DNA from: Flavobacterium sp. NG2
GTDB lineage: Bacteria; Bacteroidota; Bacteroidia; Flavobacteriales; Flavobacteriaceae
Direction: 5' to 3'
NCBI RefSeq assembly: GCF_034119845.1
Contig: NZ_CP139420.1
Location: forward strand, 474,001-538,000
Length of the DNA stretch: 64,000 nt
Part shown: in pieces, positions 3,211 through 57,652 of the stretch
How positions within the stretch are numbered: position 1 is the first letter of the stretch
How the letters are laid out: each line of letters begins with the position of its first letter
The notes under the pieces: model-generated
What the model was told of the DNA's origin: nothing
Database searches by the model: none
The model's input: the letters and a program-made list of their open reading frames with translations, nothing else
Program-made: the position numbers and the translations under genes

Positions 3211-3297
3211 AGAGAGGTGTCTGAGTGGTTGAAAGAGCTAGCCTGGAAAGCTAGTATATGGGCAACTGTATCGAGGGTTCGAATCCCTTCCTCTCTG
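3211..3297 (+). tRNA. tRNA-Ser (GGA)
   Basis: An 87-nt class II tRNA. The acceptor stem AGAGAGG (3211-3217) pairs with CCTCTCT (3290-3296), with discriminator G at 3297. The anticodon stem CTAGC/GCTAG closes the loop CTGGAAA, giving anticodon GGA (serine, UCC/UCU codons). A long variable arm follows, then a T arm containing GGTTCGAATCC. No CCA is encoded. The gene is intact. Its last 18-19 bases recur at 54172-54189 and 57634-57652, which makes it the likely integration site of the downstream island. Confidence 0.97.
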
Positions 3298-3299
3298 CT
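3280..3299 (+). other. Putative attL core (tRNA-Ser 3' end)
   Basis: The T-arm/acceptor 3' segment of tRNA-Ser. Bases 3282-3299 are identical to 54172-54189 (18 bp), and bases 3280-3298 are identical to 57634-57652 (19 bp). Integrative elements commonly use tRNA 3' ends as att sites. Calling this attL is an inference, because no integrase is visible in the window. Confidence 0.6.
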
Positions 3300-3321
3300 G
3301 ATTTAAAATTCAAAAGGTATC

Positions 3322-3357
3322 AAAACCTCAAAAACGCTATTGTTTTCGAGGTTTTTT
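3322..3357 (+). terminator. Rho-independent terminator after tRNA-Ser
   Basis: The arms AAAACCTC and GAGGTTTT, extended by AAAACG/TGTTTTC, are followed by a T-run. The remainder of 3358-3752 shows no credible gene and holds the upstream region of the beta-helix gene. A related terminator follows the tRNA remnant at 54158-54189. Confidence 0.8.
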
Positions 3358-3648
3358 GTTTTTAGAACCTTTCAAAATATTCATACTTTATCATATTACA
3401 AGGTTCAAAATCGAGACCCAGAAAACAATATAAAAATAGGGTCTTGCCAGTTTAAAAAGGAACAGAAATCAATTGTTGTTTATTTGATGATTTTAAAACA
3501 GTTGTATTATGTGTTTGATATTGTTTGATTTAGGAGCATCGTCGATTTAGTGTGTAATTTTCATTTAAATGATTTTAAGATATTTTTATATCATAAAATT
3601 CCTTCGAATGGATTCTGTAATGACTATTACTATACCTATAACGAACAA

Positions 3649-3721
3649 TTATCAAACCTTAATCTTTGAATGATTGGTTAATTTTGGTTAGTTGTCTAAG
3701 AATGAGAATAAATTCTTTTAC
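3649..3721 (+). promoter_or_regulatory. Possible regulator box upstream of beta-helix gene
   Basis: TTATCAAACCTT at 3649-3660 is identical to the box before susC (15613-15624). The second box and the spacing seen at the other four sites are not clear here: the TTTAC element lies 68 bases downstream instead of 55-56. It is a weaker member of the proposed regulon. Confidence 0.35.
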
Positions 3722-3752
3722 AATCAAAAAAACTAACTAAAAACTAACCAAA

Positions 3753-5531: not shown

Positions 5532-5561
5532 TTGTTGCCAATAACCTTAAATTGTTAAGAC

Positions 5562-6569: not shown

Positions 6570-6611
6570 AATAAAAAAAACTAACCAAACCAATCTATAG
6601 TTTAAGAAAAC

Positions 6612-7664: not shown

Positions 7665-7707
7665 TTTGTTTTGAAATAGTATTAAACCTATTGTGTCTAA
7701 TGAATTT

Positions 7708-7848
7708 ACCAGATAGAAACATAGAATTTATAGTTTTTAAAAGAGTTTGATAGATATCTTTCTTTTCACACATTCAAGCTATTTGAAAAATAGTGGTATT
7801 TTCTATCCTTTCTTTAATTATATTTTTTATTTCTATGTTCTATGCGGT
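7708..7848. repeat. Intergenic element with inverted ends (copy 1)
   Basis: Begins ACCAGATAGAAACATAG and ends with the inverted TTCTATGTTCTATGCGGT, about 140 bp end to end. The same end sequences in the same orientation occur at 27894-28030 (copy 2), while the interiors differ. It resembles the 'accacatagaaacatag' intergenic repeats of flavobacteria. The stretch 7665-7960 holds no gene. Confidence 0.55.
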
Positions 7849-7900
7849 AAACAATTCCTTTTGGATTAGACCCAACGGGTTACTATTAAATAATTTAATT

Positions 7901-7934: not shown

Positions 7935-7960
7935 GATTTTTTCAAATCTTTTTTCAAATT

Positions 7961-9622
7961 ATGTGCAAAATTATTTTCTTATTAGCCTTTGTATGTATTT
8001 CATGTAAATCCAAAGAAACGCCTACGACAAAAAAAACAACATCAATAAATTCCATAACTAACCAACGTCCCAATATTATTTTGATTATGGCTGATGATAT
8101 GGGGTTTTCAGATTTGGGTTGCTATGGAAGTGAGATACAAACACCTAATTTAGATGCCTTAGCAAATAATGGAATTCGATATACACAGTTTTACAACACC
8201 TCCAGATGTTGTCCTACTAGGACTTCATTATTAACGGGTTTGTATCCGCATCAAACCGGTTTAGGTTGGATGACCGTTGCTGATTTAGAAAGGCCAGGCT
8301 ATAGAGCCGAGATAAATACTAAGTGTGTTACAATTGGTGAAGTATTAAAAAAATCGGGCTATTCTACCTATATTTCTGGGAAATGGCATGTCAATAAAGA
8401 TGATGAATGCGAACAAGATAGCCCAAAACACAATTGGCCATTGCAAAGAGGTTTTGACCACTTTTTTGGAGTATTAAAAGGGCAATCCGATTATTTTAGT
8501 CCTGAAAACCTGTTCATGGATAATAAACAAATACAGTCCAAACAGCATTTTTATTTTACCGATGCTATAAATGATACTGCGACTAGCTTTATTGAGAATC
8601 ATCTAAAGACCAAAAAAAATCCGTTATTTCTATATGTCGCTCATGTGGCGCCTCATTGGCCATTGCATGCAAAACCTGAAGATATTAAAAAGTACCAAGG
8701 CTCTTATCTAAAAGGATGGGATGAATTACGCAAAGAGCGTTTCCACAAAATGCAGAAATTAGGAATTATTCCAGCTTCGGCTAAATTATCTGAAAAGGAT
8801 GCTGATATTCAAGATTGGGAATCACTTTCGGATGAAAAAAAAATAGAAATGGACAAACGAATGGCCATTTATGCAGCGCAAATAGACTGTATGGATCAGG
8901 GCATTGGAAGAATTATTCAAACCCTTAAAAAGAATAAGCAATTCGATAATACCATAATTCTATTTGTTTCAGACAATGGCGGCTGTTTGGAACCCATATC
9001 GAGGGGAAAAAGTAAAACAACAGTCGACTTAGGTACTAAAAAATCATTTGAAAGTTATGGAAAACCTTGGGCAAATACTAGTAATACTCCATTTAGAAAT
9101 TATAAAAAATGGCAACATGAAGGGGGAATTTCAACACCATTAATTGTGCATTGGCCTAAAGGAATCAAGTCAAAAGGAGTACTAAGAAGTCAAGTAGGAC
9201 ATGTCATAGACTTTATGCCTACGTTTCTGGAAGTGGCAAATGCAACCTACCCGAAAAAGTACAATGGTAACACAATTATCCCATTAGAAGGGAAAAGTTT
9301 AGTATCAAGCTTTAATAAAAACACAACTAATCAAAGAACCATTTACTTTGAGCATATTGGTAGTCAAGGTTTGCGTGATGGTGATTGGAAATTAGTATCT
9401 TTAGGAATCGAAACTTTTCCGTATCACAAAAAATGGGAACTGTATAATCTCAAAGATGACCGTTCTGAAATCAATGATTTGGCTTTAAAACATCCCACTA
9501 AAGTAAAAGAATTAGATGCAAAATGGAATGCTTGGGCAGAAAGAGCATATGTTTTGCCCTTAGACGGAAGATCTTGGAGCCAGAAAATAAAGAATCCACT
9601 AGGAGTGCAAACGGCTCCATAA
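7961..9622 (+). CDS. S1 family sulfatase (arylsulfatase A-like)
   Basis: A 553-residue sulfatase predicted to remove sulfate esters from sugar residues in the periplasm. The lipoprotein signal ends CISC. The metal-binding start reads IMADDMGFSDLGCYG. The formylglycine site is C-C-P-T-R with the modified Cys at residue 83, followed by TSLLTGLYPHQTG. SGKWHVN, VAPHWPLH and VSDNGG complete the active-site set. The motif set resembles SulfAtlas subfamily S1_4, assigned from memory of motifs and not from a search. It sits after a hairpin and 97 bases before a second sulfatase. Maturation needs a formylglycine-generating or anSME enzyme, which is not in this window. Confidence 0.9.
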   Translation: MCKIIFLLAFVCISCKSKETPTTKKTTSINSITNQRPNIILIMADDMGFSDLGCYGSEIQTPNLDALANNGIRYTQFYNTSRCCPTRTSLLTGLYPHQTGLGWMTVADLERPGYRAEINTKCVTIGEVLKKSGYSTYISGKWHVNKDDECEQDSPKHNWPLQRGFDHFFGVLKGQSDYFSPENLFMDNKQIQSKQHFYFTDAINDTATSFIENHLKTKKNPLFLYVAHVAPHWPLHAKPEDIKKYQGSYLKGWDELRKERFHKMQKLGIIPASAKLSEKDADIQDWESLSDEKKIEMDKRMAIYAAQIDCMDQGIGRIIQTLKKNKQFDNTIILFVSDNGGCLEPISRGKSKTTVDLGTKKSFESYGKPWANTSNTPFRNYKKWQHEGGISTPLIVHWPKGIKSKGVLRSQVGHVIDFMPTFLEVANATYPKKYNGNTIIPLEGKSLVSSFNKNTTNQRTIYFEHIGSQGLRDGDWKLVSLGIETFPYHKKWELYNLKDDRSEINDLALKHPTKVKELDAKWNAWAERAYVLPLDGRSWSQKIKNPLGVQTAP

Positions 9623-11420: not shown

Positions 11421-11620
11421 AATGCTAATATTATTTGGCTTTTTATCATTTTTATAACATTATACAGTTTAAATTGCTAAATTTATACTCTATTGTTAAT
11501 AAAAAATTAATACGATAACTTTTATATGATAACTCGAAAGGGGCAAATTTTGATTTATCAATTAGAAATGTTTCAATGAAATTAGTTATCAGCAGATCCC
11601 CAAATCATACTAATAACATT

Positions 11621-14600
11621 ATGTTGAATATTAAATATCATATTTTATCAATTCTTAGTTTTGTCTTTTGTCAATTTTTGTTTGCGCAAAGCAATATAGA
11701 ATTTCAGCAATTAATAGGCGAAAATATTCCTATCCAAAGTATCACTTACGCAGTCAAGCAGGACAAAAATGGAAATCTTTGGATTGCCTCTGAGGAAGGG
11801 GTGTTGAAAAACAATTCTAGATTCTACAAAACGTATAATAATTACGACGGACTTCCTGAAAAACTAAACAATCGTATCACTCAATTATTTATTGACTCGA
11901 AACAACAAATTTGGATTGGTCTGGAAAATGACGTTTGCAAGTATGATAAAGATTTGGATGTTTTTAAAATTGTAAAATCAAATTCTAAAACGAATCCCTC
12001 CTCAGTCAAATGCATCACCGAAGATAATGAAGGAATAATTTGGATTGGAGCAGTAAACGGACTTTGGAAATACAATGCCAAAGCAGATACAATAGAATTA
12101 GTTGTTAAAATGTCGAACATCGATGCGTTGTACAGCTACAAGGAAAAACTCATTTTTGGCACTAGTGAAGGTTTGTTTTCGTACCTCCCTCATAAAAAAC
12201 AATTGCAAAAAATAGCACTTAATTCCTTGCCTAGCAATATCACTACTATCGCTTTTATTAATAATTCATTTGTAATTGGTACAAAAACAGGAAAAATTTT
12301 CAAAGGGAATCTTAGTTTGAATCAATTCCAATTAATTAATTTCAAAACAAATAATAACGGTCCCATAAAAGATATTCTTAAAACTTCCGCGCATACAATT
12401 TACATTGCGACGGATGGCGATGGATTGTACAAAGTAGATGACTCATTTAAAATAATCAGTCATTATAGAGAAGATGTTAATAATGAAAATTCCTTAGCAA
12501 GCAATGGGATTTATGACATTGAGTTAGGTAAAGAAAATATTTTGTGGATAGCTACTTACGGTGGTGGTATCAACTATATGGATTCTAATAAATTGCCTTT
12601 TCAAAAAATCCAACATCGAATTAATTCTAGCAACAGTATTGTTTCTAATTTTACAAGATCCATTTCCAAAGACCAAAATGGAAATCTATGGTTTGGAACA
12701 ACTAAGGGGATTAGCATTCTGAACAAGAAAAACAATAGTTGGCAACATTTGAATAATTTATCCCATAAAATTGAAGGGACTCAAGATGTTGTTCTTGCCT
12801 TTCAAGCTGATGGTGAATTTATGTGGGTTGGAACCTATAATAGTGGTTTGTTCAAAATAAATATCAATAGCTTAAAAGTGGAACACTATGACAAAGTTCA
12901 TACGAGAGTTTATACCATTTTTAAAGACTCAAAAGGGAATATTTGGGTAGGTGGAATTGATGGAAATGTAACGGCAATTAGTCCTCAAAATCAAATAAGC
13001 TCATACCCAATTCAAACTGTTAGGTCGATTATTGAAACCCGTGATGGTCATATTTTAGCAGCTGGTAAAAACGGAATTTACACCATTAATCCTTCAACCA
13101 AAGAGGTTAAGCTAATTGACCCGTTAAAGCCTAACAAAGAGATTTTAGCTTATTCGACAATTAATTCGGTTTATGAAACTAAGGACGAGAGGTTAGTAAT
13201 AGCAAGTAACGGTGATGGATTGGTTTTTTATAATCCTAAAAACAAGCAAATAAAAAAATTAACCATTGCCTCTGGAATGCCTTCGGATATTGTTCAAGGG
13301 ATTATTCCTGTCAATGATGCTAATTTTTGGGTGAGTACGACCAAAGGTCTAGCGCATATTTTGACAACTCCAAAGGACACCATCATTAATATTTTTGATA
13401 AAAAAGATGGATTGTCAAGCACGGAATATAATTATGGAAGTTATAAAAAAATCAGTGATAGTGTATTTGCATTTGGTGGAGTTGACGGGGTTACCTTGTT
13501 TAATCCGAATGCGATAAAAACTCAAAATTACAAGCCTAAGGTTGAATTTGAGCTATTTAAACTTTCGAATAAAGTCATCAATCCAGGGGACAAACCATTA
13601 TTGAAACACATCAATGAGACAAAATCGATTACTTTAAAGCACAATGAAAACTCCATTGAAATACGATTTACTGGAATTTCACATAGCTCCGCTTCAAAGG
13701 TTAAATATTCCTGGAAATTAGAAGGTTTTGACAAAGAATGGTCAACACCTAATTTACAAACCATAGCGACTTATACTAATTTAAGTCCGGGTCAATATAC
13801 TTTTAGAGTCAAAGCGTATAACAAATATTCCATTCCCGGAGAAGAGCGTGTGTTAAGTATTGAAATTCTTTCTCCTTGGTGGGCCACTAGCCTTGCTTAT
13901 GTATTTTATTTCTTTTTATTAATAGGGATTATTATTGCGATTATTCATTTTACCAGTGTCATCATTAAAAACAAAAATGCTGATGAACAAATTGATTTCT
14001 TCAATAATATTACCCACGAAATCAAAACACCATTAACCATCTTGATTGCATCATTGGATAATGTGACCGAAGGAAATGATTCTGGCGAGGAGTCTAAAAA
14101 AAGAATCAAAACCACAGTAAAAAGAATCAATTCCCTTTTTGAACAAATGCTTAATTTTCAAAAAGTAACTTCAACGGATAATCTAGCACTAGATGTTTCT
14201 AAAATAGAGGTCGAAAGACATATTCTTAAGAGGGTTAATAATTTTGCACCATTAACCGAAGAAAAAAACATTGAAATTATTGTAAACAATCAATGGGGTG
14301 ATTTACCGTATTATTTTGACAAAGATATTTTTGATAAAATTCTTTTAAACTTAATTTCAAATGCCATAAAGTACTCTCTTAAAGGTGGAAAGATTGTCAT
14401 CAATATTAAACAATCAGAAAGCAAAGAATTAAAAATCGAAATTTCAGATGATGGGATTGGGATTCCAAACGACCAGCAAAAATTCATTCTGAAACGCTAT
14501 TATAGAGCTCGAAATGTAGTCAATAGCCAAAGCCCTGGAACAGGTTTAGGATTGATGATGACTAAAAAATTATTAGAAAAAACAGGAGGCTCCATTAGTT

Positions 14601-15505
14601 TTGTTAGCGAAGAAAACAAAGGAACTACTTTTAGTGTCTTGCTGAAAAACCAAGAGCAAGAATACAATAAGAAAATGTCTTCTCTCCAAAACACACTCAA
14701 CATTGATGTGGTCAACGAGCAATTAGAAATTGATGAGTTTAGTGATAGTAAAATCCTAATTGTCGAAGACAACGACGAACTAAGAACGGTACTTGTAAAT
14801 ACTTTAGGCGTTTATTTTCAGATTTATGAGGCCCAAAACGGAAAAGAAGGATTAGAAAAAGCCTCGCAAATTTTCCCTGATTTGATTCTAACAGACCTTA
14901 TTATGCCTGAAATGGATGGTATGCAAATGGCACGTGAATTAAAAGACGATATCAATCTCAATCACATTCCAGTGATTATGCTTACTGTGTTGCAAAATTC
15001 AGAACAAAAACTAGAAAGTATTGAGACTGGAATTTCAGAATATATTGAAAAACCTATTGATACACAGTTTTTATTGGCTAAGATGATTAATATTTTAAAA
15101 TGGCAAAAAAAATTGAGAGATAAATACATACACGACACTGAAACAGATACTGCTTCTTTGTTTAGAAATAAAAATGATCAAGAGTTTTTAAAAAGCTTAG
15201 AAGAAAAAGTGCTAGAGAATATCGAAAACGAATTGTTTTCTGTTCATGATTTGTCAGGAAGTTTCAGCATGAGTAGAACTTCACTTTATATGAAACTTAA
15301 AAATTTAGTGGATTTGTCTCCACAAGATTTTATTATTCACACCAAGTTAAAATATGCCAAGAAACTCCTTATCGAAGGGGAACTTAGCATCAAAGAAGTA
15401 GCCTATCGTTCGGGATTTTCTAATCCAAAATACTTTAGTACCTCTTTCAAAAAATTCTACGACACCACCCCAAGCGCTTTTCTAGACAGCTTGAAGAAAG
15501 AATAA
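11621..15505 (+). CDS. Hybrid two-component system sensor/regulator (HTCS)
   Basis: The one-protein sensor and transcription activator expected to control this PUL. With the start at 11621 it has 1294 residues and a clean signal peptide (MLNIKYHILSIL to LFAQ). An ATG at 11576 would add 15 unlikely residues before the signal. In order: two sets of Reg_prop beta-propeller repeats (GNLWIAS, QIWIG, IIWIGAVNG, NLWFGTTKG), a Y_Y_Y domain before the membrane segment (about 752-778), a histidine kinase with phospho-His about 799 (THEIKTPL), and an ATPase domain (NLISNAIKYS, DDGIGIP, GTGLGL). A receiver domain follows with phospho-Asp about 1092 (LTDLIMPEMDG), then a C-terminal AraC-type HTH (about 1200-1294). 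It probably binds the two-box sites noted before susC and other genes. Confidence 0.95.
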   Translation: MLNIKYHILSILSFVFCQFLFAQSNIEFQQLIGENIPIQSITYAVKQDKNGNLWIASEEGVLKNNSRFYKTYNNYDGLPEKLNNRITQLFIDSKQQIWIGLENDVCKYDKDLDVFKIVKSNSKTNPSSVKCITEDNEGIIWIGAVNGLWKYNAKADTIELVVKMSNIDALYSYKEKLIFGTSEGLFSYLPHKKQLQKIALNSLPSNITTIAFINNSFVIGTKTGKIFKGNLSLNQFQLINFKTNNNGPIKDILKTSAHTIYIATDGDGLYKVDDSFKIISHYREDVNNENSLASNGIYDIELGKENILWIATYGGGINYMDSNKLPFQKIQHRINSSNSIVSNFTRSISKDQNGNLWFGTTKGISILNKKNNSWQHLNNLSHKIEGTQDVVLAFQADGEFMWVGTYNSGLFKININSLKVEHYDKVHTRVYTIFKDSKGNIWVGGIDGNVTAISPQNQISSYPIQTVRSIIETRDGHILAAGKNGIYTINPSTKEVKLIDPLKPNKEILAYSTINSVYETKDERLVIASNGDGLVFYNPKNKQIKKLTIASGMPSDIVQGIIPVNDANFWVSTTKGLAHILTTPKDTIINIFDKKDGLSSTEYNYGSYKKISDSVFAFGGVDGVTLFNPNAIKTQNYKPKVEFELFKLSNKVINPGDKPLLKHINETKSITLKHNENSIEIRFTGISHSSASKVKYSWKLEGFDKEWSTPNLQTIATYTNLSPGQYTFRVKAYNKYSIPGEERVLSIEILSPWWATSLAYVFYFFLLIGIIIAIIHFTSVIIKNKNADEQIDFFNNITHEIKTPLTILIASLDNVTEGNDSGEESKKRIKTTVKRINSLFEQMLNFQKVTSTDNLALDVSKIEVERHILKRVNNFAPLTEEKNIEIIVNNQWGDLPYYFDKDIFDKILLNLISNAIKYSLKGGKIVINIKQSESKELKIEISDDGIGIPNDQQKFILKRYYRARNVVNSQSPGTGLGLMMTKKLLEKTGGSISFVSEENKGTTFSVLLKNQEQEYNKKMSSLQNTLNIDVVNEQLEIDEFSDSKILIVEDNDELRTVLVNTLGVYFQIYEAQNGKEGLEKASQIFPDLILTDLIMPEMDGMQMARELKDDINLNHIPVIMLTVLQNSEQKLESIETGISEYIEKPIDTQFLLAKMINILKWQKKLRDKYIHDTETDTASLFRNKNDQEFLKSLEEKVLENIENELFSVHDLSGSFSMSRTSLYMKLKNLVDLSPQDFIIHTKLKYAKKLLIEGELSIKEVAYRSGFSNPKYFSTSFKKFYDTTPSAFLDSLKKE

Positions 15506-15695: not shown

Positions 15696-18600
15696 ATGAA
15701 CCAAACCAAATTACTGCTAATTTTATTTCTGTTGCCAACTTTAATGTTCGCACAAAAAACATTAAGAGGTACCGTTTTGGATGAGAACAAAATGCCTCTT
15801 CCAGGTGCTACAATTTTATTGAAAGGTACTACAAAAGGTACTACAACTAATCTTGATGGTGTTTTTTCCATCTCGATAGATAAAACACCATCTACAATTT
15901 CCATCAGTTATATAGGTTATAATACTAAAGAAATAAATGTATATAATCAAACTGAAATTCAAGTTGAATTAAAAGAAAGTAAAAACCAATTAGACGAAAT
16001 TGTTGTCATTGGTTATGGCTCTGTAAAAAAAGGAGATTTAACAGGCGCTGTTACTACAGTTAAAACTACAGATGATATTTCTCAAAATTCAAAGAGTATT
16101 GAGGACATTATTAAAGGTAGAGCTGCTGGGGTACAAGTTACAGCTAATGGCTCAGAACCAGGAGCACCTAATTCTATCAAAATTAGAGGGGTGAGTAGTT
16201 TAACAGGAAACTCTGAACCTTTGTATGTTATTGATGGAATTATTGTTAGTTCAGCTACTGAAGATACAGGAAATCCTTTAACTGGTTTTACATCTCCACA
16301 GGGAGGAGGAATTCCGGGAGTAAATCCAGCCGATATTGAAAGTGTAGAAATATTAAAAGATGCATCGGCAACGGCTATTTATGGTTCTAGGGCTGCAAAT
16401 GGTGTGGTTATCGTAACGACTAAAAAAGGTAAAAAAGGAAATGCTAAATTCAATTTCACTACCTCTTTAGGAATAGGGAATGTGGTACGCAACATTGAAG
16501 TTTTGAATACGAGAGATTATGCGGATTATCAAAACAATATGAAATTGGCTTTAGGTCAAGCAAAACCTTACGATATTATTGATGGTAAAGTGTATAACGC
16601 TGGAACAACTGAATTAATTAACGGTGTAAACTGGGCAGATGATACTTATAGAACATCGATTGTGAAGAAAAACAGATTATCGGCATCTGGGGGTGGTGAT
16701 AAAGGAAATTACTACATCTCTGGAGGATTTACATCTAATCAAGGAACTTTCCCGAATGCCTTAGCTAAAGCCACAGATTTTAACTTAAACCTAAATCAAG
16801 ATTTATCAGATAGGTTAAAATTAGGCGCGAAATTCTCGGCTAATTATACGCAATTAAACTCATCTAAAGGAGCTGATGAAAATGGTTCTACAAATAGTAG
16901 TATGGTACGCCAAGTATTACAGGCGGCACCTATTTTAAATCTAGCAGACAATAATCAAAACCAAGGCGATGTGAGTGACTTCCTTGATGGACCTCGTGCC
17001 TGGACAGCTGATTATGATGATAATGCAAAAGACATTCGAATATTAGGAGCCTTAACATTAGATTATAAAATATCAAAAGCGTTTAGTTATAGATTGCGTT
17101 TTGGTAGTGATTACAGATCTAAAGACAGAAGCTTTTGGTATGGAACCGCTTTGTTAAAAGGACGAAATGCAAATGGTTTAGCAGGTGTTTCTACGTTGGA
17201 TCGTTTTAGATATAATGTAGATAATACCTTGATGTACAAAAAGAATTTTAATAAGAATAATAAAATTGATGCTACCGCTGGATTTATCATTGATAAAACG
17301 AGTGTAAGAACCACACAATATTCAGGGTCAAATTTTGCTGACAAATCACTAAGAGCTGATGGTATTTCATTTGCAGGAATTAATACGCCTCTTATTGTTG
17401 ACAGTGAGTTCCCAAATTTAGCTTCCTTTATTGGACGTTTGAATTACACACTTTATAACAAATATTTATTTACTGGAACATTCAGAGCGGATGGTAGTAC
17501 AAAATTTGCTGAAGGTCAAAAATGGGGCTATTTCCCAGCTGTTTCCTTTGCTTGGAAAGTAAGTGAGGAATCTTTCTTAAAAGGAAATGAAACGCTTTCT
17601 AACTTAAAAGTTCGTTTAGGATACGGACAGGTAGGAAATCAAAACATCAATTCGTACAGGACGTTAAGCCTTTTGTCAAGACCTAATTCAGCACTAGCTG
17701 ATGCTAATGGGGGAAATTTAGTGGCTGTTGTACCGCCTAATTTAAGCAACACTGCACTGCAATGGGAAACAGCCATACAATACAATGCGGGAATTGATTT
17801 TGGTTTTTTCAAGGATCGTTTAACAGGAACTTTTGATGCTTACTACAAAACAAGTGCTGATCTTTTATTGAATGCAGATATTCCAGATTCATCAGGATTT
17901 GACCTTTTAACTACTAATAAGGGAAATATTGATAATAGAGGGGTGGAACTTTCTTTGAATGCAGATATTATTAAAAACAAAAACTTTAATTGGTCTGTTT
18001 TTGGAAATATTTCAGTGAATAGAAACAAAATTGGAACCTTAGGAACACTTCCAGCTGAATTTGGAAACTTAGGAAGAGTTGTTGCTTTTACAGGAGCGCA
18101 AATCTCTGGAGGGACTTACTTCAAGCAGCCTGCTAATATTTTCATCGAAGGCGAACAAGTAGGTTTGTTCTACGGATACCAAACCCAAGGGATTATTAGA
18201 ACAAATGAGCAATTAACCGCTACACCTTCAGGAAATCCATTGCAATACGGAGGTAGAGCTTTAAGAGTAGGAGATGTTTATTTTGTGGATCAAAATGGTG
18301 ATGGAAATATTGATGATAAGGATAAAACTATTATTGGAAATCCTAATCCTGAATTTACTTATGGTTTTGGTACTTCATTTGAATACAAGAATTTTTCAAT
18401 CAGTGCGATGTTTAATGGGGTTTATGGAAACCAAATTGCAAATGGAAATATCCTAGAATTAGGGTATGCTAATAACTCGACAAATAATGTGCTTGTTACT
18501 GCTTATAAAGATGCTTTTAATCCAGTAACCAATCCAAATGGTGCTTACCCTAATGTTGGTGTAGGCGGTTACGGAAACTACAATTATACAACTGATTTTA

Positions 18601-18860
18601 ATGACCGCCAAGTGGAGGACGGAAGCTTCTTAAGATTGAGTTATGTTACCTTAGGATATAATGTGCCTGTAAAAGATTTTGGGTTTATTGATAGTTTAAA
18701 ACTAACTTTTTCAGGACAAAATTTATGGTTGCTAACGAAATATTCTGGATTTGATCCAGAGGTAAATAGTTTTTCTTTTGACCCTACGAGGACTGGTATT
18801 GATTGGGGTTCTTTCCCAAATCAAAGAACATTCACTTTTGGTTTAAATGTAACTTTCTAA
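15696..18860 (+). CDS. susC: SusC-like TonB-dependent glycan importer
   Basis: A 1054-residue outer-membrane beta-barrel that imports oligosaccharides using TonB energy. After the signal peptide (ends MFAQ) comes a carboxypeptidase-regulatory-like domain (LRGTVLDENKMPLPGATILL), then the DEIVVIGYGSVKKGDLTGAV segment that opens the plug of SusC-type proteins. The plug follows (IRGVSSLTGNSEPLYVIDG, ILKDASATAIYGSRAANGVV), then the barrel, ending in an aromatic-terminated strand (FTFGLNVTF). It is followed 12 bases later by susD and is preceded by the clearest copy of the proposed regulator site. It is the only SusC in the window, so all import for this PUL probably runs through it. Confidence 0.96.
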   Translation: MNQTKLLLILFLLPTLMFAQKTLRGTVLDENKMPLPGATILLKGTTKGTTTNLDGVFSISIDKTPSTISISYIGYNTKEINVYNQTEIQVELKESKNQLDEIVVIGYGSVKKGDLTGAVTTVKTTDDISQNSKSIEDIIKGRAAGVQVTANGSEPGAPNSIKIRGVSSLTGNSEPLYVIDGIIVSSATEDTGNPLTGFTSPQGGGIPGVNPADIESVEILKDASATAIYGSRAANGVVIVTTKKGKKGNAKFNFTTSLGIGNVVRNIEVLNTRDYADYQNNMKLALGQAKPYDIIDGKVYNAGTTELINGVNWADDTYRTSIVKKNRLSASGGGDKGNYYISGGFTSNQGTFPNALAKATDFNLNLNQDLSDRLKLGAKFSANYTQLNSSKGADENGSTNSSMVRQVLQAAPILNLADNNQNQGDVSDFLDGPRAWTADYDDNAKDIRILGALTLDYKISKAFSYRLRFGSDYRSKDRSFWYGTALLKGRNANGLAGVSTLDRFRYNVDNTLMYKKNFNKNNKIDATAGFIIDKTSVRTTQYSGSNFADKSLRADGISFAGINTPLIVDSEFPNLASFIGRLNYTLYNKYLFTGTFRADGSTKFAEGQKWGYFPAVSFAWKVSEESFLKGNETLSNLKVRLGYGQVGNQNINSYRTLSLLSRPNSALADANGGNLVAVVPPNLSNTALQWETAIQYNAGIDFGFFKDRLTGTFDAYYKTSADLLLNADIPDSSGFDLLTTNKGNIDNRGVELSLNADIIKNKNFNWSVFGNISVNRNKIGTLGTLPAEFGNLGRVVAFTGAQISGGTYFKQPANIFIEGEQVGLFYGYQTQGIIRTNEQLTATPSGNPLQYGGRALRVGDVYFVDQNGDGNIDDKDKTIIGNPNPEFTYGFGTSFEYKNFSISAMFNGVYGNQIANGNILELGYANNSTNNVLVTAYKDAFNPVTNPNGAYPNVGVGGYGNYNYTTDFNDRQVEDGSFLRLSYVTLGYNVPVKDFGFIDSLKLTFSGQNLWLLTKYSGFDPEVNSFSFDPTRTGIDWGSFPNQRTFTFGLNVTF

Positions 18861-18872: not shown

Positions 18873-20546
18873 ATGAAAAATACAAATAAAATTATAAAAT
18901 TAGTAGCCTTGTTCATTATAACACTACCCTTCAGTAGTTGTAATGATCTACTAACAGACACTCCAGAAAATCAATATTCTGAAGAGCAAGTGTTCTCAAC
19001 AGCTGAAGGAACTGAAACTGCGGTAAACGGAATGTATTATCAATTGCAAGGATACGACTATTATGGGGGGAGATTACGTTTGCTATTATGGCCTCATTCT
19101 GGAAAATACTTTTCAAAACAAGGCGCAAATTCTGATGCGAATCAATTAAATGTGACCAATAACAATCTTAATCTAGGTACTTTGTGGTTAGGGATGTACC
19201 AAACAATCAATCAAACTAATATTGTGATAGCGAATGTTGAAGGTAGCGGATTATCAAATGAAGCAACAAGTTTGGGACAGGCTTATTTTTTAAGAGCAGT
19301 CGTTTATTTTGATTTGGTTCGAATGTTTGAAGAAGCACCTATAAAATTAGTGCCTTCTACAAAAGACAATATTCATGTTGCTAAAAGTTCAAAAGAAGAA
19401 TTATACAATCAAGTAATTAGTGACTTGAAAAAAGCAGCTAACTTATTACCTGACAGAGGTCAATACATTGGAGGCCGACCATTGAAATATGCCGCTAATG
19501 CATATTTGGCAAAGGTATATGTTACGTTGGCTGGTGAAAATAGCGCTACGATTAAAGTAGCCAATTTTAATCCAGTTACTGAAGCCGAAATCACAGCGGC
19601 TACAATCACTAACTTTTGGGAAGAAGCAAAAACCGAATTGGATTTTGTAATCAACAATGGAGGTTATACACTGGCAACAACTTATGCTGATTTGTTTAAA
19701 GAAGGAGCAAGAAACAGCTCAGAATCTATCTTTGAATTGCAATACGGACATACAGGAGCAGAAAGAACTAATGATATTGTGAGAGATATTGTGCTTAGCG
19801 ATCATGCGAGTGTTCCTAAAGGAATTACAACTTTTGGACGTATTCTTCCTAACAAAGAAATGTTTAGTGACCATATCATCCAATATTCAGGAAAGGTGTA
19901 TGCACCCGCTGTATTTATTCCATCAGGAAATAATGCTGCTTTGATTAACTTAGACAATGCTGTTGCTGACCCAAGAATTAATGCTACTTATGTGTATAAT
20001 TCTTATGTTAAAACATCTGACGGTTCAACGCAAAATCTTTTTCCACGTCAAAAATCAGGAAATTTCTCTTATCCAGCTATAAATAAATATGGTGATTTGA
20101 CTTATGATGGAACTACCACTTTTAGAAACTTAATTTTACTTCGTTATGCTGATGTGTTGTTACTAAGAGCTGAGGTTGAAAATGAGTTGACAGGACCAAC
20201 TGCTGCTTATACTTATGTAAATAGAGTTTTATTAAGAGCAAGAACCACCACTTCAGGGGTTAAAGTGCAACCTGCTGATTGGACTTCAGTAAGTGTTCCC
20301 ACGAAAGAAGCATTCCGTGAGAGAATCATGAAAGAGCGTGAATATGAATTGAATGGGGAAGGACATGAATGGTTTGATATGAGAAGACGAGGTTTAGGTC
20401 GTTTTCAAGAACAAATCACGCACCATAATAATGCAACAGTGTTTTTTGGAAGTACTACTGATTTAATATTTACGAATGTTGAAACGCAATTGAAAATTCC
20501 AATTCCATTGACAGAGATATCTACCAATAATTTGATAAACGATTAA
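18873..20546 (+). CDS. susD: SusD-like glycan-binding lipoprotein
   Basis: A 557-residue surface lipoprotein that forms the lid on the SusC barrel and captures glycans. The lipobox ends FSSC, followed by the typical NDLLTDTPENQYSEEQVFST start. GQAYFLRAVVYFDLVRMF and LLRYADVLLLRAEVENEL belong to the TPR-like helices of the RagB/SusD fold, and ERIMKEREYELNGEGHEWFDMRR is split over the last helices. Length is normal. It follows susC by 12 bases and precedes the GH3 gene by 14, so it is in one operon with them. Confidence 0.95.
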   Translation: MKNTNKIIKLVALFIITLPFSSCNDLLTDTPENQYSEEQVFSTAEGTETAVNGMYYQLQGYDYYGGRLRLLLWPHSGKYFSKQGANSDANQLNVTNNNLNLGTLWLGMYQTINQTNIVIANVEGSGLSNEATSLGQAYFLRAVVYFDLVRMFEEAPIKLVPSTKDNIHVAKSSKEELYNQVISDLKKAANLLPDRGQYIGGRPLKYAANAYLAKVYVTLAGENSATIKVANFNPVTEAEITAATITNFWEEAKTELDFVINNGGYTLATTYADLFKEGARNSSESIFELQYGHTGAERTNDIVRDIVLSDHASVPKGITTFGRILPNKEMFSDHIIQYSGKVYAPAVFIPSGNNAALINLDNAVADPRINATYVYNSYVKTSDGSTQNLFPRQKSGNFSYPAINKYGDLTYDGTTTFRNLILLRYADVLLLRAEVENELTGPTAAYTYVNRVLLRARTTTSGVKVQPADWTSVSVPTKEAFRERIMKEREYELNGEGHEWFDMRRRGLGRFQEQITHHNNATVFFGSTTDLIFTNVETQLKIPIPLTEISTNNLIND

Positions 20547-47681: not shown

Positions 47682-48981
47682 CACTAGTGTCCACTTAAAA
47701 TAAGCTGAAAACCAGCTGGTTAATATTTTGTTCATTGACATTATTGTAATCTGATTTCATAAGTAATTCATTTATAGATGTTTTATCGAGTAATGATGCA
47801 GATAAAATTTGTAGAATTTCGTAAGTAGAACGATTGATTTTTAAATCTTTCGAGATTATAGAAACTAAACAGTAAGTTATAATTGCTACATTAATTTGGA
47901 TCCGAACAGCATTTTCTGTTGTTCCCCAAAAGGTCTTAACTTTTAGGTGTTGTTTTATCCATTTAAAGAACAATTCAACTTGCCATCTTTGTTTGTAAAG
48001 TAATGCGATATCTTCAGCGGATAGTTCAAAATTATTTGTCAAAAAGATCAACGTCTTTTTATTTTCACAATCGAAAAATTTAATTTTTCGTATCTTTTCT
48101 GGGTAATCTTTCGAAGTATAAAAACCTTCTATTTTTCCAATTTGGTCATATTTAATTCCTGTTGTTTTGTCAACTTTTTGAGAATACATTCTTTTGAATT
48201 TTACATTAGATTTTGCTCTAACTACAAAGTAAGCATTAGCTTTTGTAATGCGAAAAAGTCGTTCATAATCAACATACGCTCGGTCAAAAATGTAATAAGC
48301 AAATGGCTCATAATCTATAACATCCATTGCGTTAACATCGTGCACATTTGCCTCTGTAATATGAATAAATACAGGTATCTGTGTGCTAACATCAAAAAGA
48401 GTGTGCAACTTTATTCCAGCTTTGGTTTTTCGGAAATGAGCCCAACAAAACACGCTCAAACATAGATCTATTGTTGAAGAGTCAAAGGCATAAATATTAC
48501 CTTTAATTTCAAAAGTATCATTGCTGTTTTTATCTTGAGCAATTAATATTAAATGATTAGCAAACTCCTCAAATATTTTAAAATTGCGATTTTCATTAGC
48601 CTTGGATAAATTGCTACGAGTCACGTTTTTGCCAAATCCTAAATGATATGATTTTGATTGATGTGCTTCTATAACAATTATCAAATCTCTTAAACTTTCT
48701 CTAGCTGAAAGTTGACCAAAAATCATACATAATAATTGATTCCAACAAGTAAAATGTTTGACCGATTTATTGCCTAAATATTTAGCAGCTAACCTATCAA
48801 AAACACGCTGTGGTAGAAATTCAACCAATTGAGAGAAAACATATTTACCCTGATTCATATTCGTAATGTTGAATTACGAACATAATAATCATTTCAAATC
48901 GTCACGCTCAAATATGACTCTTAAAATACAGATTTACAATAATTTCAAAGAACTTATTTTATTTTTTAGTGGACACTAGTG
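47682..48981. mobile_element. IS4-family insertion sequence (1300 bp)
   Basis: Terminal inverted repeats CACTAGTGTCCACT at 47682 and, inverted, ending at 48981. Both ends are flanked by the same nine bases TTTCTTTAT (47673-47681 and 48982-48990), a 9-bp target duplication within the IS4-family range. One transposase gene on the minus strand fills it. The perfect ends and duplication indicate a recent insertion. It lies between genes and breaks none that can be recognised. Confidence 0.93.
47695..48858 (-). CDS. IS4-family transposase
   Basis: A 387-residue DDE transposase, apparently intact. An N-terminal DUF4372-like domain (SQLVEFLPQRVFDRLAAKY) precedes the catalytic core: first Asp in AFDSSTIDL, second in IFDRAYVDYERLF, and the Glu block YKQRWQVELFFKWIKQHLK, which fits the IS4 signature Y-x2-R-x3-E-x6-K exactly. 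An eight-base hairpin (TTCGTAAT/ATTACGAA) lies just upstream of the start at 48861-48881. It probably moves the element by cut and paste. Confidence 0.93.
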   Translation of the reverse strand: MNQGKYVFSQLVEFLPQRVFDRLAAKYLGNKSVKHFTCWNQLLCMIFGQLSARESLRDLIIVIEAHQSKSYHLGFGKNVTRSNLSKANENRNFKIFEEFANHLILIAQDKNSNDTFEIKGNIYAFDSSTIDLCLSVFCWAHFRKTKAGIKLHTLFDVSTQIPVFIHITEANVHDVNAMDVIDYEPFAYYIFDRAYVDYERLFRITKANAYFVVRAKSNVKFKRMYSQKVDKTTGIKYDQIGKIEGFYTSKDYPEKIRKIKFFDCENKKTLIFLTNNFELSAEDIALLYKQRWQVELFFKWIKQHLKVKTFWGTTENAVRIQINVAIITYCLVSIISKDLKINRSTYEILQILSASLLDKTSINELLMKSDYNNVNEQNINQLVFSLF

Positions 48982-52462: not shown

Positions 52463-52493
52463 ATACTAATTAATTAATTTAAAAACAGAAATC

Positions 52494-53906: not shown

Positions 53907-53968
53907 TTTGAACGATTGCCCTAAATACCCCGATTTAGTTTGAAACTAAATCAAGAACTAAAAACGAC

Positions 53969-54003
53969 TAAATCGGGACCGATAAAATTCTGTCCCGATT
54001 TTA
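53969..54003 (+). terminator. Rho-independent terminator at end of PUL
   Basis: TAAATCGGGAC pairs with GTCCCGATTTTA and is followed by TTTTAT. An alternative upstream hairpin CCCGATTTAGT/ACTAAATCGGG (53932-53977) shares one arm, so two mutually exclusive folds are possible. Confidence 0.75.
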
Positions 54004-54157
54004 TTTTATAATTAACAACAGCTCATAACTAAAATCTATCTTATCTTTTTGTAATTTTGTTATATCAAAATGGTATAAAACTAACTAAATTGATAGGGGT
54101 ACAATTCGGAGTACTTTCATTAAATACACTTAGTAAAGTCAATAATAACGCTACATG

Positions 54158-54189
54158 AGAGAGGTTATACAAATCCCTTCCTCTCTGCT
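54158..54189 (+). other. tRNA-Ser remnant / putative att site 2
   Basis: AGAGAGG (54158-54164), matching the tRNA-Ser 5' acceptor strand, lies seven bases before an 18-base exact copy of the tRNA 3' end (54172-54189). The body of the tRNA is missing. A terminator follows, as after the real tRNA. This fits an island boundary 51 kb from the intact gene. A degenerate 21-base repeat (54095-54115 and 54289-54310) brackets it. No gene is seen at 53907-54347. Confidence 0.65.
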
Positions 54190-54210
54190 AAAGTGAATTT
54201 AAAGCAAGAT

Positions 54211-54245
54211 AAAACCCCTAAAAACGTATGTTTTTAGGGGTTTTT
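54211..54245 (+). terminator. Strong terminator hairpin after tRNA remnant
   Basis: AAAACCCCTAAAAAC and GTTTTTAGGGGTTTT form a perfect 15-base stem around GTAT, then TCG. It is analogous in place to the tRNA-Ser terminator at 3322-3357. Confidence 0.85.
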
Positions 54246-54347
54246 CGTTTCGTAATCCTTCCATTCAATTCATTTAGCACTAATACCTAGGGATACAAAT
54301 CGGACTACCTATTTTATGAAATAAATTGTGCTCCTATTTTTTTTATA

Positions 54348-55993
54348 GGCACATTCAGAAGTAAGCCTACTTTTTTGCAAGAAATAAAAAAATGACCAAA
54401 TTTTAGAGTTTCAAAATTGGTCATTTTTATTTTTCACGGACTCTGATGTATCAAAAAAGTCTTTTTTAGGTATTGACTAGACGCACGTTCTCCACGGAGG
54501 TGTTTTTTGTTTTTTTAGGCTGCTAAAATTTGTTGCTGCTTGAGAATTCTTCTTCCTATTTCCAGGGCATTTCCTGTATGTATTCCGAAGAAGATCCAAA
54601 GCATTTCACTTTTTTGGGTTTTGGCTTTTATCTTTTTTAGATTGTAATGTTCTTTCTCTTTTCCAAAACTTCCTTCTAATCGAGTGGAGCGTTCTTTTTT
54701 GATTTCTTTAGCTAAGATTTTACGCTGTTCTTCATTTTTGCCAGCTTTTCCTTTTCGCACAAAATCGGTTTGGATGTTGTTTGAAGTGGTGAATGTTCGA
54801 TTTTTATTGGTGGCATAAATTGCATCAGCACCAAGCATTTTTACTTTAGTTTTGGTTAAGTTTTGAGCGCAAAAAACCGTGCTTTGAAGACGTGTACCTT
54901 CATTGAAAGCTCTGTACTGAATATGTTCTATAAAATTAATTCCATCAATTTGGATTTTGTTGACTTTGGCTCCAAATTCAACTTGTTTTACTTCCTTACC
55001 TCTTACAATAGGTCTAATATAGCTTTTACTAATACTTATTATTCTATCTGGAACACTTTTGCCTGTTTTAAAAATTTGAGACTGTTGTTGATACACCTTA
55101 GCGATTAGAGAACGTTGGTTTTTGTATTTTTTAGTAGCTTCAAAAGAATTTTGATTCTCAATTTTATTGAGTTCAGCGTTAAGTTTGTACAATAATTTCA
55201 ACAGTCCTCTGGTTACTTTTGTACGGTGTTTTGATTGCTTTTTTCTTTTTTTAGAATATTCATTATAGCGTCTACACCAATCCAAATACTTGGTTCTTGG
55301 TAACTTGATTTTTAACATACCACATAAGGCTTCCATTTGTTTGTAATTCCATTGTACGCATTCCCATAGTAGTTTTTGATTAGTTGGAAAGCGTACCTCG
55401 CTTTCGTAACAAGTGGCATCGGTAAAAATTTTATCCAAATCACTCATAAATGGAATCCAGTTTTTAGCTAATATTTCTTGACTCTTTCGAATATTTAAAC
55501 CTTTGGAGAGTTCCATTCTGATTTGGCTCACGATTTTAAAATTAGTCAGGGGCTTGTCTATAGGAATTAGAATGTCGCAAAAAAACTGCATGAAAATATT
55601 ACCGTTCAAAAGCTCAATAAGTTTTTTATCCGAGCAACCGTAGTAATTTTTTAACATCATCAGGGCAATCTTACCCTTGGGACTAAAATAACAATGAGTC
55701 CCTTTGTTAGAATCTTTCAATTTGAAGGCTTGACTAAGCTCAGAAAAAGGCATTGAAAGGTATATTTTACCCAAATCCGTTTTTAAAAATTGGGCGTAAA
55801 AACTATCAAAATTTTCATTGATAGTAAAAATTGAAAATTTGTATTGAAATTCGCTTAAACGTACTATTTTTGCCATCACACTTTAAAAGAAAACCCCGTT
55901 TTTGACTCGTTTTGAGCAATTTCGGGGTTTGTTTCTTCTAAAATAATACCTATTTTGCTGAAAAACAACTTTTTGTGTTATTATGAATGTGCC
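54348..55993. mobile_element. Insertion sequence, IS5/IS1182-like (about 1646 bp)
   Basis: GGCACATTCA at 54348-54357 is inverted at 55984-55993 (TGAATGTGCC). Both ends are flanked by TTTATA (54342-54347 and 55994-55999), a possible 6-bp target duplication, although the AT-rich hexamer is weak evidence. A transposase gene on the minus strand fills most of it. Hairpins lie near both ends: TGACCAAATTTT/CAAAATTGGTCA (54386-54428, transposase terminator) and AAACCCCG/CGGGGTTT (55891-55930). Family assignment is tentative. Confidence 0.8.
54515..55879 (-). CDS. DDE transposase (IS5/IS1182-like)
   Basis: A 454-residue transposase, apparently full length. The N-terminal half resembles the DUF772-type transposase domain (FKLKDSNKGTHCYFSPKG, LMMLKNYYGCSDKKLIELL). 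Probable catalytic acids are Asp in DKIFTDATCYESEVRFPT, Asp in GADAIYATNKNR, and Glu in RSTRLEGSFGKEKEHYN. A basic central linker (KYLDWCRRYNEYSKKRKKQS) separates the first two. It is bounded by the element's inverted repeats. Confidence 0.88.
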   Translation of the reverse strand: MMAKIVRLSEFQYKFSIFTINENFDSFYAQFLKTDLGKIYLSMPFSELSQAFKLKDSNKGTHCYFSPKGKIALMMLKNYYGCSDKKLIELLNGNIFMQFFCDILIPIDKPLTNFKIVSQIRMELSKGLNIRKSQEILAKNWIPFMSDLDKIFTDATCYESEVRFPTNQKLLWECVQWNYKQMEALCGMLKIKLPRTKYLDWCRRYNEYSKKRKKQSKHRTKVTRGLLKLLYKLNAELNKIENQNSFEATKKYKNQRSLIAKVYQQQSQIFKTGKSVPDRIISISKSYIRPIVRGKEVKQVEFGAKVNKIQIDGINFIEHIQYRAFNEGTRLQSTVFCAQNLTKTKVKMLGADAIYATNKNRTFTTSNNIQTDFVRKGKAGKNEEQRKILAKEIKKERSTRLEGSFGKEKEHYNLKKIKAKTQKSEMLWIFFGIHTGNALEIGRRILKQQQILAA

Positions 55994-56032
55994 TTTATAA
56001 ACCCAAGTAAAAATAAGGTGTTCAGGCGTGTG

Positions 56033-56082
56033 ATTATACTGGTTTGATATACGAACATGTAGAGCCTTATATTGTAAGTTAG
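56033..56082. repeat. Degenerate direct repeat left of fic
   Basis: ATTATACTGGTTTGATATAC at 56033, continuing GAACATGT and CCTTATA, is repeated with few changes at 57415-57462. Both can be read as YTGLIYEHV followed by KPY or EPY near a stop codon, so they may be the decayed 3' end of a coding sequence. Confidence 0.6.
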
Positions 56083-56152
56083 AAGTACTTTCTATAGGGT
56101 AAAACTAGTTCATTATTTGTGAAGTTTATTATCTTTAAAATTATAGTTTATA

Positions 56153-56210
56153 CGGTGAATAATCACTCTAATCACCGTAATATTGCGGTGATTAGAGTGA
56201 TTATTCACCG
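56153..56210. promoter_or_regulatory. Perfect 25-bp inverted repeat upstream of fic
   Basis: Left arm 56153-56177 (CGGTGAATAATCACTCTAATCACCG) is written here only by its ends: it begins CGGTGAATAATC and ends CTAATCACCG. The right arm 56186-56210 is its exact reverse complement, with an 8-base loop. A further copy of GCGGTGATTA lies at 56259-56268, next to the start codon, as part of ACCGC-AAATAA-GCGGT. Probably a binding site for autoregulation of fic, or a DNA/RNA hairpin. Confidence 0.75.
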
Positions 56211-56267
56211 CAAGAAGTTGGAGTTGTAATGATTATGTCTTATATTTACCGCAAATAAGCGGTGATT

Positions 56268-57350
56268 ATGTACATACACGAACAGAAAAACTGGCCTACT
56301 TTTACTTGGGATGCTGATGCAATCAGTGCAATACTTGGAGCTGTTCGTCATCGTCAAGGACGAGTTTTAGGTCAAATGCAAACACTTGGATTTCAAATAC
56401 AGGAAGAAACGATGCTTAAGGCATTGACTATGGATGTGACTAAATCAAGTGAGATAGAAGGGGAACTCTTAAATCCAGAACAAGTACGTTCTTCAATCGC
56501 AAGACGTTTAGGTATCGAAATTGCTGGAGCAATAACAGCCGATCGGGATGTAGAAGGAGTCGTAGAAATGATGCTTGACGCAACACAACGTTTTGATGTT
56601 CCCTTGACTGCCGATAGATTGTTTGACTGGCATGCTGCCTTATTTCCTACAGGACGAAGCGGTATGTATAAGATAAAAACCGCCACTTGGCGTGATGATG
56701 TTATGCAGGTAACTTCTGGGCCTATAGGCAAAGAAACAATACATTTTGAAGCACCCATTGCCTCAAAAGTACCAGGAGAAATGGCTGAGTTCTTAGAATG
56801 GATAGAGCAGCAACAAGATCTAGATCTAGTACTCAAAGCGGGAATTGCTCATTTGTGGTTTGTTACCATACACCCTTTTGATGACGGTAATGGTCGAATA
56901 GCACGTGCTATTACTGATATGTTGCTAGCTCGAGCTGATAAAAGCTCGCAACGATTTTATTCTATGTCGGCACAGATACAAGCCGAACGCAATAAGTATT
57001 ATGATATATTGGAAAGTACTCAAAAAGGCAAGCTTGATATTACTTCATGGCTCGTATGGTTTTTAGATTGCCTGATGCGTGCTATGGATCAAACGGATGA
57101 AACTATTGCAAAAACGATTGCTCGATCTCAATTTTGGAAAAATCAGAAGGAAACAGAGTTTAATTTGCGACAACGAAAAATACTGGAAATGCTATTAGAT
57201 GATTTCTTCGGAAACTTAAATGTTTCCAAATATGCAAAAATAACCAAAACATCAACTGATACAGCACTGCGTGATTTGCAAAACCTTGTCCAAAAAAATG
57301 TTTTGGAACAAGTAGGCAGTGGTAGAAGTACTGCGTATAGGCTAAAATAA
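56268..57350 (+). CDS. fic: Fic family protein (AMPylase) with self-inhibitory motif
   Basis: A 360-residue Fic protein, predicted to transfer AMP or a similar nucleotide group to a target protein. It has an N-terminal DUF4172-type domain (MYIHEQKNWPTFTWD). The inhibitory helix motif (S/T)xxxE(G/N) is Ser60 to Gly65 (SSEIEG) placed before the Fic core, as in class II Fic proteins. The Fic motif HPFDDGNGR is at residues 202-210. A C-terminal winged helix (about 300-360: NVSKYAKITKTSTDTALRDL) may bind DNA. The ATG at 56268 is preferred because homologues start MYIHE. A GTG two codons upstream (56262) is in frame. The perfect palindrome upstream suggests autoregulation. Confidence 0.93.
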   Translation: MYIHEQKNWPTFTWDADAISAILGAVRHRQGRVLGQMQTLGFQIQEETMLKALTMDVTKSSEIEGELLNPEQVRSSIARRLGIEIAGAITADRDVEGVVEMMLDATQRFDVPLTADRLFDWHAALFPTGRSGMYKIKTATWRDDVMQVTSGPIGKETIHFEAPIASKVPGEMAEFLEWIEQQQDLDLVLKAGIAHLWFVTIHPFDDGNGRIARAITDMLLARADKSSQRFYSMSAQIQAERNKYYDILESTQKGKLDITSWLVWFLDCLMRAMDQTDETIAKTIARSQFWKNQKETEFNLRQRKILEMLLDDFFGNLNVSKYAKITKTSTDTALRDLQNLVQKNVLEQVGSGRSTAYRLK

Positions 57351-57414
57351 ATATTCACAATTATTACTAGGAATCTTTATCGAAATTCAGCTGATGGTAT
57401 TGAAGAATTCCTTA

Positions 57415-57462
57415 ATTATACTGGTTTGATATATGAACATGTTAAACCTTATACTAGTTAAG
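57415..57462. repeat. Degenerate direct repeat right of fic
   Basis: The second copy of the element at 56033-56082. It lies in an open stretch that continues in frame after the fic stop codon to a stop at 57459-57461 (RNSADGIEEFLNYTGLIYEH). Confidence 0.6.
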
Positions 57463-57624
57463 AAAATTATAGTAACCTAGTTGAAATTTGAATAAGTATT
57501 ATTAGGGACTATTGCTAAAAAATCGTATTTAAGTAGTATTCAATTGCAACTTGCAAATTGAACCAAAATTAATAGTGCACTTTGATTGAAGAATCTGTAA
57601 AGCATTGTAAATACAGGATTATAC

Positions 57625-57652
57625 AGAGAGACACGAATCCCTTCCTCTCTGC
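57625..57652 (+). other. tRNA-Ser remnant / putative att site 3
   Basis: CGAATCCCTTCCTCTCTGC (57634-57652) is identical over 19 bases to the tRNA-Ser 3' end, preceded by AGAGAGA (57625-57631), one base off the 5' acceptor strand. Probably the outer boundary of a tandem island. The rest of 57463-57750 shows no gene. Confidence 0.6.

Follow-up and report, generated by a model that had tools for sequence, protein, structure and literature searches.

The window analysed here is a 64,000-nucleotide stretch of DNA (positions 474001-538000) from the single-contig 4,154,274-bp (4.15-Mb) genome of Flavobacterium sp. NG2, and contains an intact tRNA-Ser(GGA) gene, two further copies of its 3' end and, between the copies, a PUL and a short segment bearing an insertion sequence (IS) and a fic gene (Table 1). 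Pfam assignments agree with the original prediction in placing asparaginase to the left of the region and RluB to its right; the trio encoding TatD DNase, acyltransferase and asparaginase precedes the tRNA in all seven genomes compared. A Flavo-1 RNA is also present (60924-61069, minus strand). GC content is uniform, showing no anomaly, and composition therefore gives no sign of foreign origin.

Table 1. Predicted features of the window (window coordinates).
Feature	Position	Strand	Basis
Conserved left flank: TatD DNase, acyltransferase, asparaginase	89-3156	+	Pfam
tRNA-Ser(GGA), intact, with putative attachment site copy 1	3211-3298; core 3282-3298	+	ARAGORN, Rfam
Putative attL P' arm of copy 1	3299-3450	+	attL profile, 53.0 bits
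PUL cargo	3753-53906	+	Pfam
Hybrid two-component regulator	11576-15505		Pfam
SusC	15696-18860		Pfam
SusD	18873-20546		Pfam
DDE transposase inside PUL (DDE_Tnp_1 with DUF4372)	47695-48858	-	Pfam PF01609, PF14294
Putative P arm of attR upstream of copy 2	54047-54171	+	Alignment to G010 attR; P-arm profile
Putative attachment core copy 2, P-core-P' junction joining two tandem units	54172-54189	+	Profiles, arm matches
Unit 2, reduced to IS and fic gene	54172-57652		Pfam
Putative P' arm of unit 2	54190-54338	+	attL profile, 46.9 bits
Insertion sequence	54348-55993; transposase 54515-55879	-	DDE transposase match below curated cut-off
Fic-domain protein (DUF4172 and Fic)	56262-57350	+	Pfam
Attachment core copy 3, probable attR of unit 2	57634-57652	+	19-base exact match
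RluB, right flank	59824-60759	-	Pfam

The repeated sequence, AATCCCTTCCTCTCTGC, comprises the last 17 bases of tRNA-Ser(GGA) and occurs on the plus strand at 3282-3298, 54172-54188 and 57636-57652 (copies 1, 2 and 3). A search of the whole genome allowing up to two mismatches returned these three copies only, all within the window, against 8.8e-5 copies expected from the window's dinucleotide composition; a chance origin is thereby ruled out, as is the widespread genomic occurrence that would have spoken against an island. At copy 3 the exact match extends to 19 bases (3280-3298 on the tRNA side), as first described. The recurrence at 54172-54189 is equally real, but its 18 exactly matching bases are the last 17 of the tRNA and one downstream T, rather than the 18 tRNA bases and two downstream bases originally proposed, and there is one mismatch over 20 bases. 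What had been taken as one PUL island framed by repeats retains its att boundaries but resolves into two tandem units, a 50.9-kb PUL unit and a 3.5-kb IS/Fic unit.

Pfam assignments in the PUL unit identify a hybrid two-component regulator, SusC, SusD, ten sulfatases, two GH10 proteins, GH3, GH5, GH29 and CBM96, along with an aldose epimerase, T9SS-tailed proteins and one transposase. With its SusC/SusD pair, carbohydrate-active enzymes and regulator, the segment between copies 1 and 2 is predicted to be a complete PUL for the digestion of sulfated polysaccharide. Its first gene starts 455 bp past the tRNA and it ends 266 bp before copy 2, in keeping with the original estimates of about 450 and 270 bases. 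The reported lack of an integrase also holds: none of the genome's seven PF00589 matches falls in the window, and tblastn with eight integrases detected no remnant there (no match at E<=1), so that the window has no integrase of its own such as would define an autonomous ICE, IME or prophage. Nor did Pfam detect a relaxase or conjugation domain among the 30 main ORFs (non-overlapping, at least 100 aa) between copies 1 and 3. In the second unit the fic gene is the sole non-IS gene found by Pfam. The IS, whose ends GGCACATTC and GAATGTGCC are each flanked by TTTATA (identified by eye), encodes a transposase identical to a protein encoded at 1177311-1178675 of the same genome. A near-perfect 58-bp palindrome (56153-56210) lies upstream of the fic gene.

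The exact core is present in 138 of 299 Flavobacterium genomes, and at least nine carry same-strand copies on one contig, 3-73 kb apart, the window's genome being included in both counts. We read the DNA following tRNA-Ser(GGA) in 83 genomes, including the window's, the lengths ranging between 186 bp and 75 kb; the set leaves out two more stretches, which stopped short of the tRNA. At 12 of the 83 sites an integrase match (one of them a partial gene) starts within 300 bp past the tRNA on the same strand, integrase genes at occupied sites beginning about 120-290 bp past it. The clearest case, in genome G266, consists of the tRNA, an integrase at 137-1291, the repeat at 8069 and a conserved block of genes at 8306. 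At 23 of the 83 sites no island intervenes and the first gene of this conserved block starts about 1 kb or less from the tRNA; one of these sites (G036) has a second, one-mismatch core 156 bp past the tRNA. Elsewhere, seven copies of a tRNA-Ser 3' end recur at 66-bp spacing in genome G001 (contig C2, 76506-76918), and locus L172, at the end of contig C34 of genome G025 and about 44.5 kb from tRNA-Ser(GGA), combines an attR-like P arm, a core of the tRNA-Ser(TGA) type and a P' hairpin.

Elements in genomes G010, G186, G030, G234, G017, G285 and G272 share with the window both the target tRNA-Ser(GGA) and the form of attL, and the attR of the G010 element matches copy 2; unlike the window, all seven keep an integrase beside the tRNA. 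Among these elements SusC/SusD genes were found only in G030, within the DNA read (3.7 kb in G285, 19.7 kb in G017). The G030 element, 72.6 kb long, bears its integrase at the same tRNA and is followed by a second integrase; its cargo includes lanthipeptide and SIR2/STALD genes, its SusC/SusD genes lie beside a peptidase gene, and no GH was found among 17 of its proteins scanned. Nowhere in the DNA read did one element combine an integrase with a glycoside-hydrolase PUL.

To compare element ends we constructed an attL profile from the opening 150 bp of attLs that adjoin an integrase (seven attLs in six genomes, all other than the window's) and applied it to 77 sites besides these, three additional stretches and 300 shuffled sequences. 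The highest scores were those of G282 (62.7 bits), copy 1 (53.0), G273 (48.1), G181 (47.7), copy 2 (46.9), G292 (40.7) and G025 (33.1), followed by 21.0 bits after the second core of G010, 19.2 in G204 and 16.3 in G235 and G275; the best of the 300 shuffles reached 1.0 bits, and among sites with the conserved block close behind the tRNA the maximum was 13.9. When 20 further sites were scored, G272 alone exceeded 30 bits (79.8), with an integrase at 288-1478, the other 19 scoring at most 14.9 and having no adjacent integrase. The P' arm of copy 1 contains a terminator-like hairpin (about 3323-3355) and the motif AAAATCGAGACCC at 3407-3419 with an inverted partner near 3438-3446, and the attL is identical to that of G025 at 72 of 73 bp, the last 9 tRNA bases counted in. 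The P' arm of unit 2 similarly has a hairpin (about 54211-54245) and a candidate arm site, TAGGGATACAAATCGGACTAC, at about 54288-54308.

On its upstream side, copy 2 is preceded by a candidate P arm with an arm site, TAGGGGTACAATTCGGAGTAC, at about 54094-54114. Over 216 bp around copy 2, core and downstream DNA counted in, the sequence can be aligned at 71% (E 2e-24) with the attR of the G010 element, which is 46.8 kb long and carries an integrase. A P-arm profile based on four attRs, with the core excluded, scored this arm at 23.6 bits (E 2.7e-5), higher than any of 13,695 background tiles apart from the four that span the training arms; the profile is narrow, since it found none of ten other attR stretches, that of G273 among them. 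Taken together, the fit of the DNA downstream of copies 1 and 2 to the attL profile and the alignment of copy 2 to the G010 attR lead us to infer that the repeats are attachment-site remnants of site-specific elements. A retained attL (53.0 bits at copy 1) and attR (the P arm and core of copy 2, homologous to the G010 attR) are the ends expected of a CIME. The island originally predicted at the tRNA 3' end is thus upheld by integrase-bearing elements at the same site elsewhere, whose attL and attR match copies 1 and 2. Copy 3 is probably the attR of unit 2, on the strength of its core; beyond the core the case is thinner, a 13-bp match of its P arm to that of G010 being equalled by 5 of 300 shuffles, the arm escaping the P-arm profile, and the DNA downstream not being among the 45 best matches to the attL profile.

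The arms carry a further signal. In six of nine elements having both ends, the best match of the P' arm among eleven P arms was the element's own; the exceptions were G184 and G121, whose arms matched best to G266 (of the same arm type), and G289, whose own arm ranked fourth. By the same comparison, the P' and P arms at copy 2 are each other's best match (18 of 21 bases; 14.4, against 13.6 for the next), and the copy 1 arm matches G234 best (13 of 13 bases; 13.0, the next 11.4), scoring at background level (8.6) against the P arm of copy 2; these margins are small. The outer arms of the PUL unit, of GAGACCC type on the left and GGAGTAC type on the right, look non-cognate, and because they appear to differ in type the unit is probably composite, a fusion of two elements that once lay in tandem. 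It may not excise as one: the mismatch argues against easy excision in cis, and the circle originally proposed to join 54189 to 3299 would not be expected to form easily.

In three other genomes a PUL lies within an attL end of similar form, and the DNA read there yielded no integrase. The island of G273 spans 16.1 kb and ends at a core with one mismatch; it encodes a regulator, SusC/D, two GH43 and an epimerase, and its contig is free of PF00589 matches. The GH32 PUL of G292 terminates on the right in 12 bp from the end of that genome's own tRNA, beyond which comes a terminator almost identical to the one at the empty G139 site. The island of G025 bears defence genes and sulfatase and SusC/D genes (10 proteins scanned). 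A fourth genome, G181, probably also has a PUL at the tRNA-Ser(GGA) site. This metagenome bin is the nearest relative with respect to the PUL, and in it the last part of the tRNA contig and the first part of the PUL contig overlap over 96 bp with 91 matches; its PUL would then adjoin the same tRNA, rather than lie elsewhere without the repeats, the case that the original prediction had named as contrary evidence. The SusC of this PUL was retrieved at E<=1e-280 from only three of 298 other genomes (G181, 92%; G074, 83%; G044, 49%), and also occurs in the marine Flavobacteriaceae Yeosuana (68%) and Aestuariivivens (67%); in G074 the contig with asparaginase yielded no tRNA-Ser.

PULs were present at four of five integrase-less attLs of this type (type A) and at two of 71 other sites, with the window included and G181 (196 bp) left out; omitting the window gives 3/4 vs 2/71 (Fisher p 6e-4), and restriction to 20 kb gives 2/4 vs 2/71 (p 0.013), counts in which some sites had been chosen for their att motif and the lengths read are unequal. 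The fifth type-A end, in G282, had no integrase in 18.7 kb and no SusC/D, and SusC/D genes lie at the site without type-A ends in G051 and G154. The 20 further sites included no type-A site lacking an integrase, and one of them (G058) had SusC and SusD without a type-A end. A general PUL hotspot at tRNA-Ser(GGA) is unsupported, SusD within 20 kb of the tRNA being at genome background (four observed, 5.8 expected over 82 sites from the density in 40 genomes).

The right flank has a separate history. The original prediction looked for strains in which asparaginase and tRNA-Ser run directly into the rluB side; no such arrangement was found among the sites read, the 23 block-adjacent sites having the other conserved block instead. 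Of 25 other genomes for which both genes were listed on a shared contig, 17 have rluB 74-164 kb downstream of asparaginase, and in the remaining eight it is 83 kb away on the other side or 0.5-0.9 Mb distant. With this separation in relatives, and a different block at empty sites, rluB is ruled out as the ancestral right neighbour. In the NG2 genome the conserved block of empty sites is found inverted at 1.154-1.159 Mb, and the genes preceding rluB in G025 are found, also inverted, at 1.211-1.220 Mb, displacements which indicate that the island ends at or near a rearrangement breakpoint. Genes located between tRNA-Ser and rluB in relatives occupy 1.14-1.22 Mb of this genome, with the two ends of the displaced segment in permuted order, facing one another across about 50 kb.

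We consider it likely that the region consists of remnants of site-specific integrative elements, arrayed in tandem at the 3' end of tRNA-Ser(GGA), and that the PUL lies in a CIME-like island. Elements with a tyrosine integrase of the G010/G186 family would have delivered DNA to this tRNA and integrated next to each other at its end, their integrase genes being lost subsequently by internal deletion. The simplest history would be that elements integrated repeatedly and a later deletion then joined one element's left end to another's right end, leaving unit 1 (3282-54189) with the sulfatase-rich PUL and unit 2 reduced to an IS and fic. The present state would be that of stranded mobile DNA, a CIME-like island having att ends without a recombinase.

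Less probably, the attachment scars are real but the PUL entered an already decayed array, by homologous recombination between flanks or through IS activity. The non-cognate appearance of the PUL unit's ends would be compatible with such an entry, as would the transposases in both units and the lack of integrase or transfer domains among the ORFs scanned, and recombination of PULs between core genes without mobile genes has been argued for gut Bacteroides in the available text of PMC8845570. Set against it, four genomes (the window's, G273, G292 and G025) carry a PUL within attL ends of one type where no integrase was detected, and this PUL fits its ends closely, at most 455 bp separating it from the tRNA and 266 bp from copy 2. 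We regard as similarly doubtful a broader proposal, that Flavobacterium PULs circulate as integrase-free cassettes docking at tRNA-Ser by means of other elements' integrases, with the arms serving as a compatibility code; if true, the tRNA-Ser attachment site would be a modular docking port for glycan-diet genes.

The notion that the island is still mobile, its units being excised in trans or cis by integrases resident at tRNA-Ser(TGA) or by a newcomer element, seems improbable. In the NG2 genome the two closest relatives of the G010 integrase (62% and 56% identity) directly follow tRNA-Ser(TGA) genes and have the same attL form (94.3 and 36.3 bits), which ties this integrase family to tRNA-Ser genes and favours the reading as an array of remnants. 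The 56% relative has two in-frame stops; the other, a type-A integrase without internal stops, speaks for continued mobility, as does copy 2, which presents a P-core-P' junction with matching arms. A third relative (38%) follows tRNA-Asn, without the attL form. Yet the left arm motif AAAATCGAGACCC has no second occurrence anywhere in the genome, stretches of 4.2 kb surrounding each of the related resident integrases (three in all) gave no arm match above background, and the PUL unit has unlike outer arms. Under the reading of the region as an array of remnants, the island is probably unable to move except through the action of integrases of matching arm type. A second tRNA-integrated element is present in this genome at about 1160543-1168850, where at least 31 bp of the 3' end of tRNA-Leu(TAG) are repeated at a distance of about 8.2 kb, next to a tyrosine integrase.

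Strings resembling the tRNA 5' strand do precede copy 2 (GAGAGAGG, 54157-54164) and copy 3 (AGAGAGAC, 57625-57632), as originally noted, but their reading as leftovers of tandem tRNA-Ser genes with deleted middles is hardly credible: the DNA upstream of copy 2 aligns to the G010 P arm, where the corresponding string differs (AAGAGGGTGCGG), and the attL-type arm downstream would not follow a tRNA remnant, which rules out a collapsed tRNA gene at copy 2 and, by analogy with copy 2 alone, at copy 3.

The same tRNA-Ser site thus hosts integrase-bearing elements in some species and PULs without detected integrase in others, within related attL ends; the readable scars offer a concrete, checkable route for PUL gain, and the short attL profile can be used to look for more such islands. 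Structures of this kind are already known (CIME-like), and the combination with a PUL at a Flavobacterium tRNA-Ser is new; the titles and abstract openings listed in searches of open-licence literature showed no report of this site or of such a PUL island in Flavobacterium. The available text of PMC8845570 describes many PULs of gut Bacteroides that vary between strains yet adjoin core genes without mobile genes, leaves their route of movement open and names decayed elements at tRNAs as one possibility. PULs of gut Bacteroidetes carried on integrative conjugative elements or other MGEs (PMC8845570 and PMC6907783, in the text available) resemble ours in being on integrated mobile DNA, but sit on identified mobile elements, whereas the window has att scars alone. 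The tandem islands at ssrA in Dehalococcoides, as described in the accessible part of PMC3146451, likewise have short direct repeats of an RNA gene end and metabolic cargo, and some, like the units here, are without integration genes; they differ in phylum, in target gene and in their reductive dehalogenase cargo. The closest likeness is to CIMEs and tandem ICE/IME accretion as portrayed in the available text of a review (PMC5704250), in which att sites at a fixed target gene and tandem arrangement recur as here, and CIMEs have no recombinase or transfer genes. The window presents att ends, no integrase or recombinase detected (IS transposases being present) and no transfer genes detected, a likeness of structure as read from sequence; related integrase-bearing elements, possibly conjugative, lie at the same tRNA in other genomes. 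It departs from the CIMEs of that text in its target, a tRNA-Ser in Flavobacterium, in its cargo of a whole PUL, and in outer arms that look non-cognate.
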